Assembly: GCA_009377605.1 (NCBI GenBank)
Contig: WHTT01000071.1
Span: 1-33,143, forward strand
DNA from: Luteitalea sp.
Lineage (GTDB): Bacteria > Acidobacteriota > Vicinamibacteria > Vicinamibacterales > Vicinamibacteraceae
Direction: 5' to 3'
DNA: 33,143 nt
Of this stretch, positions 1,518 to 8,919 are shown in pieces. Position numbers and translations under genes: made by a program. The stretch's first letter is position 1; every line of letters begins with the position of its first letter. A model generated the notes under the pieces. That model had not been told where the DNA came from and did not search any database. It saw nothing but the letters and a program-made list of their open reading frames with translations.

Positions 1518-2528
1518 TCAGTCCGTCCCTCCTTCGAGCAACGCGGCGGCTATGCGCCGGTACCCGTCAACCGCCCGGTGCAGCTCGGGAATTGGGACGT
1601 GCTCCTCGTCCGTGTGTGCGACGAGGACAGAGCCCGGCCCGTAGAGCAGCGGCTGCCCCCATCGCGTCAGACACGGAATGTCGGTGCTGTACGGAAAGAC
1701 CTCGGTCTCGAAGCCGGGCACCGTCACCATGCGCACCAAGGGGAGCTCGAGCACGTCGTGGACGGCGGCGGCGCTCCCCGCCAGCGTCCGCAGCTGGTCA
1801 CGCACTTGGTCGTTCGGCCCCACCGTGCGAAAGACGATCTCGGCTTCTGCAGATGCCGGTACGACGTTGGGTGCGACCCCTCCGGAGATCAAGCCAACGG
1901 TATAGTGCGTCCGGCCCAGCATGACGTCGTGTGGCCATTCGGCGTTGCGGAGGCGGACCAGCACGTCGATGAGCTTCTCGACGGCCGACTCGCCGAGCTC
2001 TGGGTGCGACGAGTGAGCTGCACGGCCCCGCGCCTCGAGGCGCACGCGCAGTGCTCCTCGCGTCGCGGCCGCCAATCGGTTGTCCGTTGGCTCTCCATTC
2101 ACCAAGAAGGCGCAGCCGTCCGCGAGCGTGTTGGCCGCAATGGCGCCATCGCTGCCGCGCTCCTCCCCCACCAGGAACAGCAAACCGATGCGTCGCTCGC
2201 CCGCCGAACGCAGGCGCTCGGCGGCAACAACCTGAGCGGCGAGGATACCTTTCGCGTCGCACGCGCCGCGCCCGTAGAGCCGCTCATCCTCGATGCGGCT
2301 GGGAAAGAAGGGCGGCACGCAGTCGTAGTGCGTCGAGAAGACGACACGCGGCGGATCGAGCGTTGCCAGGATGTTTCGGCGATCGTCGCTCACGACCTGC
2401 TCACTGACCGACCATCCAAGGCGGCGCAAATAGTCGCTCAGCCAACCGGCCAGCGCCCCCTCGCGCCCCGTCGTCGTGTCGACGTCGACGAGCTGCGTGG
2501 TCAGGCGCACGACGTCTAGCGAATCCAC
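1518..2528 (-). CDS. dapE: M20-family succinyl-diaminopimelate desuccinylase (DapE-like)
   Basis: A 336-residue M20/ArgE/DapE metallopeptidase. Visible motifs are STHYDC (metal His67), GRGACDAKG (bridging Asp91), VGEERGSDG (catalytic and metal Glu122/123) and a C-terminal HTDEEHVP segment with the last metal ligand. DapE releases succinate from N-succinyl-LL-2,6-diaminopimelate in the lysine/peptidoglycan pathway, which fits its place directly after dapD. The frame stays open much further upstream, but that part is a low-complexity Arg-rich shadow of dapD. The GTG at 2528 is chosen because it overlaps the dapD end by 13 bp and has GGAG about 8-9 nt upstream. M20 enzymes also include ArgE and carboxypeptidases, so the exact substrate rests on context. 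Confidence 0.85.
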   Translation of the reverse strand: MDSLDVVRLTTQLVDVDTTTGREGALAGWLSDYLRRLGWSVSEQVVSDDRRNILATLDPPRVVFSTHYDCVPPFFPSRIEDERLYGRGACDAKGILAAQVVAAERLRSAGERRIGLLFLVGEERGSDGAIAANTLADGCAFLVNGEPTDNRLAAATRGALRVRLEARGRAAHSSHPELGESAVEKLIDVLVRLRNAEWPHDVMLGRTHYTVGLISGGVAPNVVPASAEAEIVFRTVGPNDQVRDQLRTLAGSAAAVHDVLELPLVRMVTVPGFETEVFPYSTDIPCLTRWGQPLLYGPGSVLVAHTDEEHVPIPELHRAVDGYRRIAAALLEGGTD

Positions 2529-3373
2529 TGCTCGAGCTCCGTTCGCGCGTCGGTGCGCGAGTCGCGGTACTTCACGATGACCGGCGTGCTGAGCGAGAGC
2601 TGCCACTGGCGACCGGCCTCCGCCGTCACTGCACGCGCGCCGGGCACGACGACGGCGCACGGGGGCACGACGAGCGGCTGGTCTTTCTCGGGTCGGATGA
2701 TGCGTGCGTTCGGCAGATCGTAAATGGGCGTCGATCCCGTGATGATGGTGCCGGCGCCGATGACCGCGCGCTCTTTCACCACCACCCCTTCGTAGACACC
2801 GGTGTTCCCGCCGATCAACACATCGTCTTCCACGATGACGGGCATGGCGCCAACAGGCTCGATGACACCACCGATCTGCGCGCCCGCGCTCACGTGCACG
2901 CGCTGGCCAATCTGCGCGCACGAGCCAATCAGGACGTGCGAGTCGATCAGCGCACGCTCACCGACCCATGCCCCGATGTTGATGAACATGGGCGGCATGC
3001 AGACGACCCCGCGTGCGACGAAGGCACCGTCGCGGACGCTCGAGCCACCCGGCACGATCCGGACGCAACAGTCGGGCGTGAATCGCTTGACCGGCAACGT
3101 GTCCTTGTCGAAAAAGGAGAAACGACCGTGGTCGGCCGACACGTCCGACGACACACCGAATCGGAAGCCGAACAAGATGCCTTGCTTCACCCACGCGTTC
3201 ACGCGCCAACCGGTCGGCGATGTGGAATCCGGCTCGGCAGCGCGCACGGCACCGACCGAAAGCGCTCCTCGCAGCGCCTCGAAGACGTTGCGCCCCTCTG
3301 CACGATCGGCCTCGGCGCCCTTGGCCCAGAGGGCCGTGATGCGCTCAGAAAGCTCCCCCACTGGAACGGTCAT
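2516..3373 (-). CDS. dapD: Tetrahydrodipicolinate N-succinyltransferase
   Basis: A 285-residue left-handed beta-helix acyltransferase of the E. coli DapD type (274 residues). It transfers succinyl from succinyl-CoA to L-2,3,4,5-tetrahydrodipicolinate. The N-terminal helical domain carries the family hallmark GWRVNAWVKQGILFGFR near residues 55-70. A run of hexapeptide repeats (INIGAWVGERALIDSH, IGSCAQIGQRVHVSAG, VLIGGNTGVYEGVVV) forms the beta-helix from about residue 125 to 225. Its ATG at 3373 overlaps the dapA stop codon in an ATGA arrangement, so translation is probably coupled. Presence of DapD indicates the succinylase branch of lysine synthesis rather than the dehydrogenase or acetylase branch. 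Confidence 0.96.
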   Translation of the reverse strand: MTVPVGELSERITALWAKGAEADRAEGRNVFEALRGALSVGAVRAAEPDSTSPTGWRVNAWVKQGILFGFRFGVSSDVSADHGRFSFFDKDTLPVKRFTPDCCVRIVPGGSSVRDGAFVARGVVCMPPMFINIGAWVGERALIDSHVLIGSCAQIGQRVHVSAGAQIGGVIEPVGAMPVIVEDDVLIGGNTGVYEGVVVKERAVIGAGTIITGSTPIYDLPNARIIRPEKDQPLVVPPCAVVVPGARAVTAEAGRQWQLSLSTPVIVKYRDSRTDARTELEQWIR

Positions 3374-4275
3374 GCTCGCACCTCCGCGCCGGACCGCAAG
3401 CCGAGCTCTTCGATGATTCGCGCGAGCTTCTCACGCGTCTCGACACGCGGCGGCACCATTGGCAGCCGATAGCGCTCCTCGAGGAGCCCCATCTGCGCCA
3501 TGACATGCTTGACAGGAATGGGATTCGATTCGATGAAGTTCCCGAGCAGCAACGGAACCAGGCGCTTGTGGAGTCTCTGCGCCTCGAGCGTGTGACCTTG
3601 CTCGAACAGCTCGACGAGACGTGTCAGCTCGGCGGGTATCTCGTTGGCCGCCACTGAGATGACACCGTGCCCCCCAACGGCCATCAGCGGCAGCGTCAAC
3701 AGGTCATCGCCACTCACGACGATGAAGCCCTCTGGTACCACAGTGCAGACCTCCGAGATCTGAAAGAGGCTCCCCGAAGACTCCTTGATGCCAACGACGT
3801 TGGGGATAGCGGCGAGACGGGCAAGCGTTCGAGGATCGATGTTGCAACCGGTTCGACTCGGCACATTGTAGAGAATCACCGGCAACGAGCTGGCGCCTGC
3901 AACGGCCTTGTAGTGCTCGACGAGGCCGTCCGGCGTCGGCTTGTTGTAATAGGGTGTCACGGAGAGCAGGCCGTCCACACCGGCGCGCTGCATGTCACGC
4001 GCTTGTTCGACGACCTCGGCGGTGTTGTACCCGCCGGCGCCGGCGACGACAGGCACGCGCCCGCCGGTCTCCTCGACCACCAGCTCCACCACGCGGCGTC
4101 GCTCGTCAGAGGTCAGCGTCGGCACTTCGCCGGTCGTGCCACACGGCACCAGGAAGTGAATACCTGCGTCGATTTGTCGTCGTGCCAACGCCCGTACGCG
4201 CGCCTCGTCCACGCCGCCGTCGGCAGCAAACGGCGTGACCAGCGCGGTACCACAGCCCGTAAAGCGCGTTCTCAT
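3370..4275 (-). CDS. dapA: 4-hydroxy-tetrahydrodipicolinate synthase
   Basis: A 301-residue class I aldolase of the DHDPS family, which condenses pyruvate with aspartate semialdehyde. Catalytic residues are all visible: GTTGE at 46-50 (Thr47/48), Tyr110 in VTPYYNKP, Tyr136 in LYNVPSRTG and the Schiff-base Lys164 in VGIKESSG. A strong GGAGG lies a few bases before the ATG at 4275. The gene follows dapB after an 89-bp gap filled with inverted GGGGTCA/TGACCCC repeats, the only non-coupled junction in this operon. It overlaps dapD by 4 bp. Confidence 0.97.
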   Translation of the reverse strand: MRTRFTGCGTALVTPFAADGGVDEARVRALARRQIDAGIHFLVPCGTTGEVPTLTSDERRRVVELVVEETGGRVPVVAGAGGYNTAEVVEQARDMQRAGVDGLLSVTPYYNKPTPDGLVEHYKAVAGASSLPVILYNVPSRTGCNIDPRTLARLAAIPNVVGIKESSGSLFQISEVCTVVPEGFIVVSGDDLLTLPLMAVGGHGVISVAANEIPAELTRLVELFEQGHTLEAQRLHKRLVPLLLGNFIESNPIPVKHVMAQMGLLEERYRLPMVPPRVETREKLARIIEELGLRSGAEVRA

Positions 4276-4364: not shown

Positions 4365-5063
4365 CTACTCGATTCCGAGCACGTCGCGCATCGTAAACCA
4401 TCCTTGCTTGCCCTGCACCCAGCGGCCGGCGTGTAGCGCTCCGCGGGCGAACGTGGCGCGATCTCGCACGGTATGTGTCAGCGTGATGGTCTCGCTCGGT
4501 CCGTCGAATCCCACGGTATGGATGCCGGGGAGGTGCCCGGCGCGCGTCACGCTGACGTCGAGCCGCTGCAGGTAGCCGGCACGCTCGATTGCCGCAAGGA
4601 TGGCTTTCGCCGTGCCAGACGGCGCATCGCGCTTTCCCGCATGATGCGCCTCGTGCAAGAACGCACCATAGTCGCCGTGGTCCGCGATGAGTGTCGCCGT
4701 CCGTACGGCGACAGCTTCGAGCACAGTGGCCCCGACCGAGAAGTTGGCCGCAAACACGCCGGCAATGCCCGCACGCTCGACTGCAGCGCGCACGGCGGTC
4801 TCATGATGCTCGGACCAGCCGGTCGTGCCCACGACGAGCGGTGCGCCGAGGTCACACAGAGCCGCGAGGTTTTCGACAAACGCACTGGCTGCGGTGAATT
4901 CGAAGATGACGTCGAGGCGGGGGAAGCGGGAGCGGGCGAGGTCCGATCGGGCGGTTCGGCTCGTCACCACCCCGGTAATCTGGATGCCGTAGTGGGGCGC
5001 GAGGCTCTCGATGAGCTGGCCCATCCGGCCGTGCCCCACGATGAGCGCAGAGAGCGTTGTCAC
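4365..5063 (-). CDS. dapB: 4-hydroxy-tetrahydrodipicolinate reductase
   Basis: A 232-residue NAD(P)H-dependent reductase of the second lysine-specific step. The Rossmann motif is VGHGRMGQ at 9-16. VVGTTGWS (78-84) is the family loop, and the substrate-binding/catalytic segment is EAHHAGKRDAPSGTAK (138-153), with the conserved His140/His141 and Lys144. It is slightly shorter than E. coli DapB (273 residues). The start codon is GTG at 5063, overlapping the lysC stop as GTGA, so the two are likely translationally coupled. Confidence 0.95.
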   Translation of the reverse strand: MTTLSALIVGHGRMGQLIESLAPHYGIQITGVVTSRTARSDLARSRFPRLDVIFEFTAASAFVENLAALCDLGAPLVVGTTGWSEHHETAVRAAVERAGIAGVFAANFSVGATVLEAVAVRTATLIADHGDYGAFLHEAHHAGKRDAPSGTAKAILAAIERAGYLQRLDVSVTRAGHLPGIHTVGFDGPSETITLTHTVRDRATFARGALHAGRWVQGKQGWFTMRDVLGIE

Positions 5064-6478
5064 GCCAGCTCCATGCTAGTCGGCGCTGCCTCTTGCCGCA
5101 ATGCGCAAAAGCGGTCGTGGATCAGCCCCATCGCAGCCGCCAGTTGTGCCTCGGGCAACACGACCGTCACGTTTCTTCGCGATCCCGCCTGCGAGACCAT
5201 GCGCAGCGGGAAGCCCTCGAGCGCGCCGAGGATCTGTGCCGAGAGCGCGGCGTCCGTTCGCAGGCGCTCTCCAACAGCGCACAGCAGCGCCATCTCGCGC
5301 TCGGCCGACACGTCGGCAAACTCTTCCAAGGCGGAAAGAATCGCGGCAAGATGCCGCGTGTCGTCCACCGTGACCGATACGCTCACCTCCGAGGTCGTGA
5401 CGACATCCACCGATGTCCGGTATCGCTCGAACACCTCGAAGAGCCGGCGCAGGAAGCCATGTGCCATGAACATGCGCGACGACGTGATATCGATGACCGT
5501 GACATCGCGCTTGCAGGCCAGAGCAGTGATCGGCGTCGGCGAGATCGGCGGCGACTCCACGATCGTCGTACCGGGCACATCCGGCCGGTGCGAGTTGAGG
5601 ATCCGTACGGGGATACCGGCTCCGACGGCGGGCAGAATGGTGCTTGGATGCAGCACCTTCGCGCCAAAGTACGCAAGCTCTGATGCTTCGGCAAACGAGA
5701 GGCTTCGCACTGAGCGCGTTCCGGAAACAACGCGCGGATCGGCCGTCAGCATCCCGTCCACATCCGTCCAGATTTGGATCTCCGCAGCACCCAGGACGGC
5801 GCCGAAGATCGACGCCGAGTAATCGGAGCCACCGCGTCCGAGCGTCGAGGTCGCGCCCTGTTTCGTTGCACCGATGAAGCCGCCGACGACTGGCACGCCT
5901 CCGGCCGAGATGTGCGGCTCGACCTCCAGACGCACGCGCTCTCGCGTGGCCGCCATATCAGGTTGTGCTGTCCCGTGCTCCTCGTCCGTCACGAGGACGC
6001 GACGGGCATCGACCCACACAGGGGCGAGACCAGCGGCCCGCAAGGCCGCCGTCATGAGACGACTACTGGCGATCTCGCCGGTGGCCACGAGCGCGTCCAA
6101 CGAGCGGGGTGCGAGATCCCGCAGAATCGCGAGCGCGTGCAGGAGCTCGGTCGCATCGCGCCAGTCCGATTCGAGCGCCGTCGTGAGGTCCGGCAGATGT
6201 CTGCTTCCCGCCACCGATTCCGCCGCTTCACGATGACGCGCCGCAAGCTGCTGTACCAGGGACGCCGCATCGTCCTCCTCACCCTGGGCCGCGCGCATTG
6301 CGGCGCGAATGAGCTGGTCGGTGACCTTCGACATCGCGGAGACGACCACGAGCGGCCGGACGCCGCGCTGCTCCGCGCGGCGGACGATGGCCGCCACACG
6401 ATGCATGGCAGTGGCATCTTTCACCGACGTCCCGCCGAATTTCATGATCACCATGAATGATTCGTCCTGCACGGTCAT
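5060..6478 (-). CDS. lysC: Aspartate kinase with C-terminal ACT domains
   Basis: About 472 residues. The N-terminal amino-acid kinase domain opens with IMKFGGTSVKD and includes GGFIGATKQGATSTLGRGGSD in two blocks near residues 215-235. The C-terminal third contains ACT regulatory segments (for example SVDVVTTSEVSVSVTVDD), the usual site of lysine or threonine feedback. It phosphorylates aspartate, the committed step for lysine, threonine, methionine and diaminopimelate. It is a monofunctional kinase, with no homoserine dehydrogenase fused. The ATG at 6478 overlaps the asd stop (TGATG); in-frame ATGs at 6454 and 6445 are alternatives, the former preceded by AGGA. Which amino acid inhibits it cannot be read from sequence. 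Confidence 0.95.
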   Translation of the reverse strand: MTVQDESFMVIMKFGGTSVKDATAMHRVAAIVRRAEQRGVRPLVVVSAMSKVTDQLIRAAMRAAQGEEDDAASLVQQLAARHREAAESVAGSRHLPDLTTALESDWRDATELLHALAILRDLAPRSLDALVATGEIASSRLMTAALRAAGLAPVWVDARRVLVTDEEHGTAQPDMAATRERVRLEVEPHISAGGVPVVGGFIGATKQGATSTLGRGGSDYSASIFGAVLGAAEIQIWTDVDGMLTADPRVVSGTRSVRSLSFAEASELAYFGAKVLHPSTILPAVGAGIPVRILNSHRPDVPGTTIVESPPISPTPITALACKRDVTVIDITSSRMFMAHGFLRRLFEVFERYRTSVDVVTTSEVSVSVTVDDTRHLAAILSALEEFADVSAEREMALLCAVGERLRTDAALSAQILGALEGFPLRMVSQAGSRRNVTVVLPEAQLAAAMGLIHDRFCALRQEAAPTSMELA

Positions 6479-7527
6479 CAATCCGCGAGCAGGCCCTCGG
6501 CCCGCATCAGCTCCGCATTGAGGATGGCCGCGCCGGCGGCACCCCGGACCGTGTTGTGTCCAAGCGCCACGAACTTGAAGTCGAGCACGTGGCAGGGACG
6601 CAATCGGCCGATGCTCACGACCATGCCATGCTCGCGCTCCGCGTCGAGTCGCGGCTGTGGGCGGTTCGGCTCATCGAGATACAGGAGCGGTTGCGCCGGA
6701 GCCGATGGCAGCTGTGCCTCCTGCGGCTTGCCACGAAACGACACGAAGGCCCGGCGCACCTCGTCGAGCGACGGCTTGGCGGCACACGCCACCGAGACCA
6801 TCTCGGTGTGGCCGTCCACGACCGGGACGCGCGTCGTGTGCGCGCTCACCGCCACCGGATGCGGCACGACCCGTCCGTCTTGCTGTGTCCCGAGGATCTT
6901 CTTCGTCTCGCTCTCGATCTTCTCTTCTTCACCGCCAATGAACGGCACCACGTTGCCCGTGATGTCGAAGGACGGCACGCCCGGATATCCCGCGCCCGAG
7001 ATCGCCTGCAGCGTCGTCACGACGGTGGACTCGAGGCCGAACGCCCGCAGCGGTGCAAGCGCCATCGCGAGGAAGACCGTCGAGCAGTTCGGGTTCGTAA
7101 TGATCGCGCCCTTCCAGCCCTTCTCCCGACGCTGACGTGGCACCAGCGCGAGATGATCCGGATTGACCTCCGGGACGATTAGCGGCACCGTCGACTCCAT
7201 ACGGAAGTTCCGGGCGTTGCTCACGACGAGGTGGCCGGACGCGGCAAAGGCGGCCTCCACCTCACCGGCGACGCCGGCGTCGAGGCCGGAGAAGACGAGG
7301 CGCGGCCCCTTGCCTGGCACCGGCTCTTCCACAACCAGGCGAGCAGCCTCGTCCGGTAGCAAGGACGCCAGCCGCCACGCCGCCGCCTCGCGATAGGGCT
7401 TGCCCGCCGATCGCTCGCTGGCCACGAGCCAGGTCAGGCGGAACCACGGATGCCCCGCGAGGAGTCGGACGAATTGTTGGCCCACCATCCCGGTCGCGCC
7501 AAGCACTCCCACTTCAATAGGTGGCAT
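6478..7527 (-). CDS. asd: Aspartate-semialdehyde dehydrogenase (archaeal/eukaryotic-type subfamily)
   Basis: A 349-residue enzyme reducing aspartyl phosphate to the semialdehyde. The NADP-binding start is VGVLGATGMVGQQF (6-19), the catalytic cysteine is Cys148 in TNPNCSTVF, and SGAGYPGVPS is typical of the TIGR00978 subfamily that is common in archaea and fungi. It is the first gene of the lysine operon. The ATG at 7527 lies 14 nt after a terminator U-tract (7541-7583), so its expression must depend on read-through of that terminator. Its own ribosome binding site (GGGA) is weak. Confidence 0.95.
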   Translation of the reverse strand: MPPIEVGVLGATGMVGQQFVRLLAGHPWFRLTWLVASERSAGKPYREAAAWRLASLLPDEAARLVVEEPVPGKGPRLVFSGLDAGVAGEVEAAFAASGHLVVSNARNFRMESTVPLIVPEVNPDHLALVPRQRREKGWKGAIITNPNCSTVFLAMALAPLRAFGLESTVVTTLQAISGAGYPGVPSFDITGNVVPFIGGEEEKIESETKKILGTQQDGRVVPHPVAVSAHTTRVPVVDGHTEMVSVACAAKPSLDEVRRAFVSFRGKPQEAQLPSAPAQPLLYLDEPNRPQPRLDAEREHGMVVSIGRLRPCHVLDFKFVALGHNTVRGAAGAAILNAELMRAEGLLAD

Positions 7528-7540
7528 ATTGCTGTTCCCA

Positions 7541-7583
7541 AAACAAAAAACCCGCCCCGCGGCGGTGCCGCGATTGGCGGGTT
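7541..7583 (-). terminator. Intrinsic terminator in the asd leader (attenuator hairpin)
   Basis: On the minus strand AACCCGCC (7583-7576) pairs perfectly with GGCGGGTT (7556-7549). An inner five-base-pair stem CGCGG/CCGCG sits inside it, and TTTTTTGTTT follows. This is a textbook Rho-independent terminator, but it lies upstream of asd and downstream of a short leader ORF rather than after a gene. The 5' arm is exactly complementary to a copy of the 3' arm located inside the leader ORF (7640-7633), giving a mutually exclusive antiterminator. Confidence 0.9.
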
Positions 7584-7614
7584 CTTGGCGAACGGTTCCT
7601 GATCGTTTCGAGGC

Positions 7615-7704
7615 TTACGTTGCGCGTACCGTAACCCGCCCAGCGCGGAGACGCTTCCGCTTTCGAATAGTCGTTCGCGTGCTGGTTCGGGTGTCGTGCC
7701 TCAT
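7615..7704 (-). CDS. Threonine-rich leader peptide of the asd-lysC-dap operon (29 aa)
   Basis: A 29-codon ORF from the ATG at 7704 to the TAA at 7617-7615. Its first half reads MRHDTRTSTRTTI and continues with RKRKRLRAG. It contains seven Thr (five of them within codons 5-12), one Ile, two Lys and nine Arg. The Thr cluster recalls the Thr/Ile runs of the enterobacterial thr operon leader, although the sequence is otherwise different. Codons 22-24 (GGG CGG GTT) contain the antiterminator arm. There is no clear Shine-Dalgarno; the predicted transcription start is only about 10 nt upstream, so translation may be nearly leaderless. Role is inferred: ribosome stalling at Thr codons would favour read-through into asd. 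Arg codons are also frequent, so an arginine or general charging response cannot be excluded. Confidence 0.75.
   Translation of the reverse strand: MRHDTRTSTRTTIRKRKRLRAGRVTVRAT
7633..7640 (-). promoter_or_regulatory. Antiterminator arm within the asd leader peptide gene
   Basis: GGCGGGTT here is identical to the 3' arm of the terminator (7556-7549) and can pair over 8 bp with the terminator's 5' arm (7583-7576). A weaker 5-bp partner ACCCG at 7692-7688, in Thr5-Arg6, could sequester this arm when the leader is untranslated. Together these give the classical 1:2, 2:3 and 3:4 set of alternative pairings. Confidence 0.75.
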
Positions 7705-7721
7705 GACAAACGCTATTTCAG

Positions 7722-7748
7722 ATTATCGAGTCAGCACGCGAACGTCAA
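7722..7748 (-). promoter_or_regulatory. Predicted sigma-70 promoter of the asd-lysC-dap operon
   Basis: On the minus strand TTGACG (7748-7743) and GATAAT (7727-7722) are separated by 15 bp. The -10 matches five of six consensus bases. The spacing is shorter than ideal; a shifted -10 (TAATCT) would give 17 bp but a poorer match. Transcription would begin near 7714, about 10 nt before the leader ATG. The element lies just beyond the nhaA stop codon. Confidence 0.6.
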
Positions 7749-7758
7749 GCCCTGAGCA

Positions 7759-8919
7759 TCATTCCTCTGCGGACGCTGCCCGCGGTTCGCGCCCAGGCAC
7801 CAAGCGCCGCACCATCGCGAGCAGGAGCGCGATCGGCGCGGCAATGAAGCTCAGAAGGGCCCCCATTCGCACTTGATCCAGCAGGTCGCCCGCCGGGAAT
7901 GCGGCAATCGCAAAGAACAGCGCAACGGTGAAGCCAATGCCGGCGACCGTGCCGAGCAGCATGATATCGCCCCAGGACAACCCGTGCGCCCGCCGAAAGC
8001 CACACCGCTCGGCGAGCCACGTGAACCCGGCGATACCGAGCGGCTTGCCGACGACCAGCGCAATCACGACGATCGCCGTGCCCGCTCCCATGGCCGCCAG
8101 TTGCACGCCCGCGTTGGCGAAGCCAAACAGGCCGAGCACGACCTGCACGGGCACCTTCCACCAATGCTCGAACTGGCTCAACGTGTCGGCGCCATGCTCC
8201 TCGGTCGGCTCGTAGATGCCGAGGTCCATCATCCGATGCGGCATGAAGGGCACGATCGGAACGAGCGCGAGCGCTGGATGGATACCCCCCTCATGGAAGC
8301 CGATCCACGAGCAGGTTCCAGCAAGAAGCACGTACGGCCAGAAGCTCCGCACGCGCCGCCGTCGCAGCCACCAGGCAATGGCAAGCGCCACGACGAGCGG
8401 ACCGGCGAACCACACAATCGAGAACGCCTTTTGCGGATAGAACGACGCGAGCAGCACCAGCCCCATGGCATCGTCCGCAATCGCGAGCAGGAGCAGAAAC
8501 GGTATCGCAGGGCTGCCCGCCGGAAACAGGACACGCGCCACCATGTACGAGAACGCGATGTCCGTGGCGCACGGCACGGCCCAGCCTCGAGCCAGCTCCG
8601 GCAAGCCAGACAGGTGCACCATGATGACGTAGATGCCCGCCGGCACCGCCATCCCGCCCACGGCGGCCAGAATGGGCACGGCCGATTCCCGCGGTGACGA
8701 GAGCGCGCCACCGGGCAGGGTCGATTCGAAGACCTCCTTCGCGGCCAGCGCGAAGAAGAACGCCATGCCGATGTCGTTCACCACGAACTCGAGGGCATGC
8801 GCAACGGTTTCGTAGCTGTCGTGGTCGAGGTTCGCCCAGACTAGGGCGAGCACCGTGCCCGCGATCAGCAGCAGCGAGTAGTCGATGATCCGCGTGAAGA
8901 TTCGAGAGATGTGAGACAC
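7759..8919 (-). CDS. nhaA: Na+/H+ antiporter NhaA
   Basis: A 386-residue polytopic inner-membrane antiporter exchanging internal Na+ for external H+. Many hydrophobic segments are visible from residue 14 onward. The functional aspartates are present: the paired Asp149-Asp150 in LLAIADDAMG (ion-binding site) and Asp120 in VPCATDIAFS on the unwound helix. Length matches E. coli NhaA (388). The start is a GTG at 8919 with no obvious ribosome binding site. It ends 11 bp before the asd promoter and is not obviously co-regulated with lysine synthesis. Confidence 0.96.
   Translation of the reverse strand: MSHISRIFTRIIDYSLLLIAGTVLALVWANLDHDSYETVAHALEFVVNDIGMAFFFALAAKEVFESTLPGGALSSPRESAVPILAAVGGMAVPAGIYVIMVHLSGLPELARGWAVPCATDIAFSYMVARVLFPAGSPAIPFLLLLAIADDAMGLVLLASFYPQKAFSIVWFAGPLVVALAIAWWLRRRRVRSFWPYVLLAGTCSWIGFHEGGIHPALALVPIVPFMPHRMMDLGIYEPTEEHGADTLSQFEHWWKVPVQVVLGLFGFANAGVQLAAMGAGTAIVVIALVVGKPLGIAGFTWLAERCGFRRAHGLSWGDIMLLGTVAGIGFTVALFFAIAAFPAGDLLDQVRMGALLSFIAAPIALLLAMVRRLVPGREPRAASAEE

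Follow-up and report, generated by a model that had tools for sequence, protein, structure and literature searches.

The region upstream of asd in Luteitalea sp. (Vicinamibacterales, Acidobacteriota) looks like a real attenuator of an asd-lysC-dapB-dapA-dapD operon, and its short leader ORF most plausibly senses Lys, a block of Thr codons having been added to it. The window, by which we mean the whole 33,143-nt stretch of DNA that was analyzed (GCA_009377605.1, contig WHTT01000071.1, positions 1 to 33,143), was compared with other genomes of the order, from which 67 such leaders were collected. Judged by sequence, it is likely that these leaders are ribosome-mediated attenuators with an ancestral Lys sensor, that the Thr block was added in the window's family (f1), and that Met was substituted elsewhere; CGA may act as a sensitising partner of the sensed codon.

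Layout of the leader region in the window

Between the end of nhaA at 7759 and the start of asd at 7527, the minus strand of the window contains a promoter-like pair, a leader ORF, and a terminator (Table 1). The original prediction had described these parts as an attenuator controlled by Thr codons, and its description of the individual elements was largely borne out. The TTGACG/GATAAT pair is present, but its spacer is 15 nt and the pair is absent from the list produced by a consensus promoter scan of the window. The 29-codon ORF with five Thr in codons 5 to 12 was located as described, the terminator with its U-tract does precede asd, and the sequence GGCGGGTT at 7640-7633, within codons 22 to 24, matches the 3′ arm of the terminator exactly. 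The prediction mentioned neither the Lys codons at positions 15 and 17 nor an inverted repeat of 18 nt. The repeat (89%; 7672-7689/7727-7744) covers the promoter spacer and Thr codons; none was seen in the same-genus relative in a by-eye comparison, and it is possibly a chance occurrence or an operator.

Further Thr codons stand at positions 25 and 29 of the leader, and CGA precedes Thr7, Thr11, and Lys15. Against codon use in the window, the probability of at least 7 Thr in 28 codons is 6e-4, and that of at least 5 Thr in 8 codons is 2e-5, the 8-codon stretch having been picked post hoc.

Table 1. Coordinates of the leader region and the operon behind it in the window
Feature	Position	Strand	Remarks
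-35-like TTGACG	7743..7748	-	direct read; TTGACC in same-genus relative
-10-like GATAAT	7722..7727	-	ends 17 nt 5′ of leader ATG
Leader ORF	7704-7615	-	29 codons + TAA; MRHDTRTSTRTTIRKRKRLRAGRVTVRAT*
Thr block, codons 5-12	7669..7692	-	Thr at 5, 7, 9, 11, 12
CGA-AAG (Arg14-Lys15)	7660..7665	-	motif common across order
Second Lys codon (codon 17)	7656-7654	-	
1:2 hairpin	7634..7692	-	ACCCG 7692-7688 with 7638-7634; CCAGC 7685-7681 with GCTGG 7644-7640
Antiterminator 5′ arm (region 2)	7633..7648	-	complementarity and folding
Antiterminator 3′ arm (region 3)	7568..7583	-	overlaps terminator 5′ arm
Intrinsic terminator with U-tract	7546..7586	-	immediately 5′ of asd
asd, aspartate-semialdehyde dehydrogenase	6478..7527	-	TIGR00978 above cut-off
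lysC	5060..6481	-	NF006570 lysine-sensitive aspartokinase 3, 462.6 bits vs cut-off 455
dapB	4365..5063	-	TIGR00036 above cut-off
dapA	3370..4275	-	TIGR00674 above cut-off
dapD	2516..3373	-	NF008808 above cut-off

Folding of the window RNA gave -28.8 kcal/mol for the terminator (z -5.0; equalled by 0 of 200 shuffles), -33.9 kcal/mol for the antiterminator (16-nt arms, 88% complementary; z -2.6; 4 of 200), and -26.7 kcal/mol for the 1:2 hairpin (z -3.1; 2 of 200). These competing structures are more stable than the prediction had indicated. For the last of them, the predicted ACCCG pairing is present, but to call it a weaker 5-bp pairing understated a hairpin that extends via CCAGC/GCTGG. Complementarity of the second half of the ORF to the terminator 5′ arm exceeds that of shuffles (p = 0.02). 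As in an attenuator, the ORF and asd are separated by an intrinsic terminator, and a mutually exclusive antiterminator takes in the 3′ half of the ORF. Since nhaA, whose profile matches fall below their cut-offs, lies upstream on the same strand, the terminator could be an ordinary one serving nhaA, and the ORF a chance frame. However, a promoter-like sequence separates nhaA from the leader, and many genomes again show the ORF, the terminator, and the arms, so that this explanation is scarcely credible.

An M20-peptidase-like ORF was noticed by eye in the window (1518-2921). In another genome (G043), two ORFs whose matches stay below curated cut-offs lie 3′ of dapA (L131:3272-6690), one resembling a DapE/ArgE peptidase and the other MutS.

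Recurrence and folding of the leader across the order

Searching the 162 genomes of the order for Asd at E 1e-60 gave 112 rows from 109 genomes, and removal of 8 partial rows (G003:C405, G063, G072, two of G073, G109, G139, and G155) left a working set of 104 asd loci from 103 genomes. With an f10 Asd as the query, no additional full-length locus was found in 36 further genomes, where 2 partial matches were obtained. Leaders were picked by a terminator scan and then by choosing the ORF on promoter score, blind to amino-acid content, which yielded the 67 leaders. The terminators of G026, G062, and G122 and the start codon of G004 were set by hand, the G089 ORF was discarded, and f15, f6, and G120 were excluded from ORF picking.

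The genes behind the leaders include lysC, dap, or hom in 66 cases, and the remaining contig (G039) stops within asd. A leader with a terminator was present at 66 of the 71 asd loci that have lysC/dap/hom next and enough upstream sequence, compared to 0 of 30 loci without such an arrangement. The five lysC-next loci at which it was absent despite adequate upstream sequence are those of G011, G028, G088, G089, and G106; upstream sequence was too short in G003 and G013. Among the 30 loci without the arrangement, 24 belong to f14/f15, and in the members inspected the upstream gene resembles, by eye, the end of an aspartokinase; one other (G060) has a block of N in its upstream sequence. Among 80 named records, which largely represent these genomes, 31 showed CGA-Lys together with a terminator.

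Within f1, comparison of the sequences upstream of asd showed that the ORF frame, the arms, and the Thr run of the original prediction recur; the lack of conservation that would have refuted the prediction was not observed. The same-genus relative (G006, L038) retains leader, region 2, and terminator, and its leader reads MRLATRTSTRTTIRKRKSHRAGRVTRRAT. Seven codons differ between the two leaders, of which six lie outside codons 5 to 17, and the one inside is synonymous. Four genomes of a sister genus have TRTIITITVTTRKRELDSARGWLVYAS-like leaders in which whole-codon indels occur and the Thr/Ile composition is retained. Together, the 67 leaders and the codon changes between sister species describe a short, translated-looking ORF with a conserved frame, as an attenuator would have. 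Region 2 fails to align across families in an order-wide DNA alignment.

The -10 element chosen is TATACT in 41 of the 67 leaders and ends 7 to 13 nt 5′ of the start codon in 53, and Shine-Dalgarno-like four-mers precede 2 of the 67 leaders versus 59 of the 104 asd starts. From this spacing and rarity we infer that a near-leaderless start, with transcription beginning at the deduced sites, is common to the leaders.

We then examined folding with a masked ribosome, the mask extending up to 12 nt past the first A-site base and the RNA being cut before the terminator 3′ arm. With the ribosome early, the terminator 5′ arm pairs upstream in 66 of 67 leaders, and a sustained drop follows on ribosome advance in 64. 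In these 64, Lys codons (Met in f10 and f4) lie before the drop in 147 of 153 cases versus 1103 of 1686 for all codons, and the last sensed codon stands 0 to 4 codons before the end of the antitermination plateau in 54. The second half of the ORF pairs with the terminator arm better than shuffles do (p < 0.05) in 23 of 67 leaders (Fisher p 3e-11). For the first half this holds in none of the 67, and a leader's own terminator arm fits better than the mean of the arms of other families in 51 of 67. The antiterminator also forms with an early-stalled ribosome (median 0.77), so that the untranslated default is not cleanly "off" and folding does not separate Thr from Lys positions; in the window the 1:2 hairpin is stable.

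As an out-of-sample set, 20 stretches upstream of lysC were taken from genomes in which this asd was unfound or lay elsewhere, and were put through the same blind procedure. Five had a leader, with CGA-Lys in 5 of 5; no leader was found in the other 15, and four of the 20 stretches had <900 nt upstream. In G071, G070, and G068 the leader ORF lies ~1.4 kb 5′ of lysC, and in G071 the intervening gene is an aspartate-semialdehyde dehydrogenase (Pfam). In G010 and G015 it lies directly 5′ of lysC; asd of G015 is on a separate contig, and the terminator scan found no terminator there. The leader thus appears to accompany the lysine genes and not asd as such.

A general leader style in these genomes was ruled out, as leuA, trpE, and hom loci (17, 18, and 10 analyzed, respectively, of 30 matches listed for each) showed no convincing attenuator, and ilvB loci gave a single case in 20. 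Terminator-like matches occurred at four of the 10 hom loci, and one spurious match was obtained at the 18 trpE loci. The ilvB case (L297, G053) is a Val/Leu/Ile-rich short ORF followed by a terminator ~230 nt before the gene, a possible branched-chain attenuator. We also noted leaders with Thr runs and terminators, but without Lys, ~190 nt before asd in HRbin26, two Thermomicrobiaceae, and one Sphaerobacteraceae (L100, L102, L105, and L115); a SAM riboswitch (83 bits, L100:243-345) lies ~2.7 kb upstream of asd in HRbin26.

Putatively sensed codons and their CGA partner

Of the 1770 codons in the 67 leaders, 148 encode Lys, which is 3.4 times the Asd background of 0.025; the other two frames give 0.025. 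Lys is found in 63 leaders, in 56 of them as CGA-Lys a short way ahead of the antiterminator, and many leaders hold just one or two Lys codons. Of the 84 Arg codons that directly precede Lys, 76 are CGA, compared to 20 of 206 for Arg elsewhere (p = 3e-41); against the same reference, CGA accounts for 9 of 22 Arg codons preceding Thr (p = 4e-4) and 3 of 9 preceding Met (p = 0.06). Only 76 of the 148 Lys codons, roughly half, come directly after CGA. Among ordinary genes, CGA accounts for 1 of 9 Arg codons preceding Lys in the window and for 1 of 15 in asd genes. These data suggest that CGA may sensitise the codon that follows it. Two Lys codons at an exact spacing of five codons were observed in 42 of the 52 leaders having two or more Lys.

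The near-invariance of the nucleotides, with CGA mostly fixed, could also mean that CGAAAGCGG is an RNA element, such as a protein- or ribosome-binding site or a slippery frameshift site, to which the leader ORF is secondary; A_AAG can act as a weak slippery tetramer. However, CGAAAG is in the leader frame in 75 of its 77 occurrences, and a CTTTCG partner is absent from all 67 transcripts, findings that rule out a simple RNA helix as well. Moreover, f10 has CGA-ATG, and CCT-AAG or CTG-AAG is used elsewhere. We regard the RNA-element explanation as improbable. Lower still do we rate nascent-peptide arrest through an Arg-Lys-Arg motif or a riboswitch for a small molecule: a basic RK(R) motif is widespread, but Lys is followed by different residues (R, W, C, or H), the Met leaders are without the motif, and searches of the window and 20 loci with Rfam found no riboswitch at the leaders, neither the lysine riboswitch (L box) nor a T-box being matched.

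Thr is prominent in f1, where it makes up 37 of 169 codons in six leaders (4.5 times background), and in f7, f8, and f11, whose four leaders have 4 to 7 Thr each. As an order-wide sensor, Thr was ruled out by the 67-leader set, and f12 leaders are rich in Lys (26 of 191 codons). The original reading as a Thr attenuator therefore stands as to the leader-peptide anatomy, the near-leaderless ORF, and the Thr run of f1, but not as to the conserved residue, which is Lys in 63 of 67 leaders rather than Thr. For the window itself, a pure Thr (or Thr/Ile) attenuator like thrL, with incidental Lys codons, would account for the enrichment in f1 and for the Thr/Ile composition held by the sister genus through whole-codon indels. 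It would also suit the single aspartokinase found in each of seven f1 genomes (E up to 1e-30, at most 10 candidates scored per genome), from which it follows that the asd-lysC-dap operon would supply Thr as well. Against this, CGA-AAG is retained in f1 while other codons vary, and a sister-genus leader on a cut contig (L009, G003; outside the 67-leader set) keeps the motif with just 3 Thr; the common codon across the order encodes Lys, and the operon belongs to the lysine branch. We therefore think a Thr-only sensor unlikely. With Lys common to 63 leaders, CGA-Lys present in the window, and only three Thr in L009, the window leader would be a Lys sensor carrying a Thr block. Tracking of aspartokinase gene number by Thr number was considered and rejected: p was 0.03 in f3, 0.095 over all leaders, and 0.65 outside f1, and no such relation is claimed.

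The four leaders of f10 and f4 contain no Lys; Met makes up 18 of their 119 codons (7.4 times background), and CGA precedes the last Met of the run in all three f10 leaders. Downstream of them lie asd-lysC-hom-metY (G064), asd-lysC-hom and a metX-like hydrolase (G062), asd-hom with metY-like and metX-like genes (G065), and asd-lysC with metY-like and metX-like genes (G052); metY of G064 matches a curated model over its cut-off. With downstream sequence extended where contigs permitted, dap genes follow 53 of the 67 leaders and hom/met genes 4, both follow none, and 10 stretches end too early. Lys is present in 53 of 53 dap leaders and 0 of 4 hom/met leaders (p = 3e-6, with loci treated as independent though related), an association of Met for Lys that rests on four genomes in two families. 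The over-represented codons (Lys overall, Met in met operons, and Thr in f1) agree with the products of the operons, and nearly all of the Lys and Met codons stand where a stall would free region 2.

Proposed mechanism and relation to known systems

We propose that transcription begins a few bases 5′ of the leader start codon and that a ribosome initiates there without a Shine-Dalgarno site. When Lys-tRNA is scarce, the ribosome would stall while CGA occupies the P site and AAG the A site; in f1, scarce Thr-tRNA would also stall it, on the Thr run. Region 2 would then be free to pair with region 3, blocking the terminator and allowing asd-lysC-dapB-dapA-dapD to be transcribed. With ample amino acids, the ribosome would cover region 2, and the terminator would form. 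The Lys codon would be the ancestral sensor in the order and the Thr block a lineage-specific gain, and Met codons would have taken the place of Lys where the operon runs into methionine genes. The broader idea, that one chassis has been re-addressed by codon replacement to the end product of the operon (Lys, Lys plus Thr, or Met) with the P-site CGA as a dedicated sensitiser, seems to us about evenly balanced between right and wrong.

Leader-peptide attenuation is classical. The E. coli thrL-thrABC attenuator (Rfam RF00506) has a Thr/Ile-rich leader and competing antiterminator and terminator structures, a logic that the f1 leaders resemble. Unlike thrL-thrABC, the leaders described here precede asd-lysC-dap, have a near-leaderless ORF and a conserved CGA-AAG, and lack an Rfam match, thr_leader being found neither in the window (E up to 5) nor at 20 loci (gathering score). 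In the lysine cluster of Thermus thermophilus, a leader peptide with Lys codons is said to attenuate the lysine genes (J Biol Chem 2005); that system differs in its alpha-aminoadipate route and its phylum, and it is not known to show a CGA pattern or retargeting.

Leaders with related codon content have been described in other bacteria. SEP5 of Sinorhizobium meliloti is a small ORF in the 5′-UTR of an "aspartate dehydrogenase" gene. It contains six Thr codons and three Lys codons and was suggested to encode a leader peptide; it shares Thr and Lys codons with the present leaders, but its conservation is given as limited to Sinorhizobium, and no attenuator structure appears in the account of SEP5 itself (PMC10117765). 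The attenuator rnTrpL of the same species shares the leaderless ORF and controls the Trp operon instead (PMC10117765). In Campylobacter jejuni, MetL and CJsORF19 are putative leader peptides, the latter enriched in Met like the f10 and f4 leaders, though genes and lineage differ (PMC11955535). A codon-context assay in the his leader, in which non-AGG Arg codons gave the highest de-attenuation when paired with CGA, fits CGA as a slow partner codon; the pairs were engineered, and CGA-AAG is not encountered in the assay as described (PMC4046918). In a comparative study of Actinobacteria, attenuators are listed for threonine, and riboswitches for lysine and methionine, in other species (PMC1262725). 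Our literature search returned no earlier report of this leader, and, within the library searched, none that links Acidobacteria to attenuation by Thr leader peptides or asd to leader-peptide attenuation. Precedents exist for leader peptides of the Lys, Thr, and Met types, whereas the chassis with swapped sensors and the CGA partner codon appear to be new.

Taken together, the leaders would extend leader-peptide attenuation to the Vicinamibacterales (Acidobacteriota) and to an operon commonly linked to riboswitches. Nature would here offer a series whose sensed codon shifts with the operon, and the codon swap would provide built-in controls at the bench. They also make a testable codon-context claim, namely, that CGA ahead of the sensed codon tunes stalling. 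If this is true, slow-codon priming would be a hidden design element of attenuators, by which one or two codons may replace a long run.
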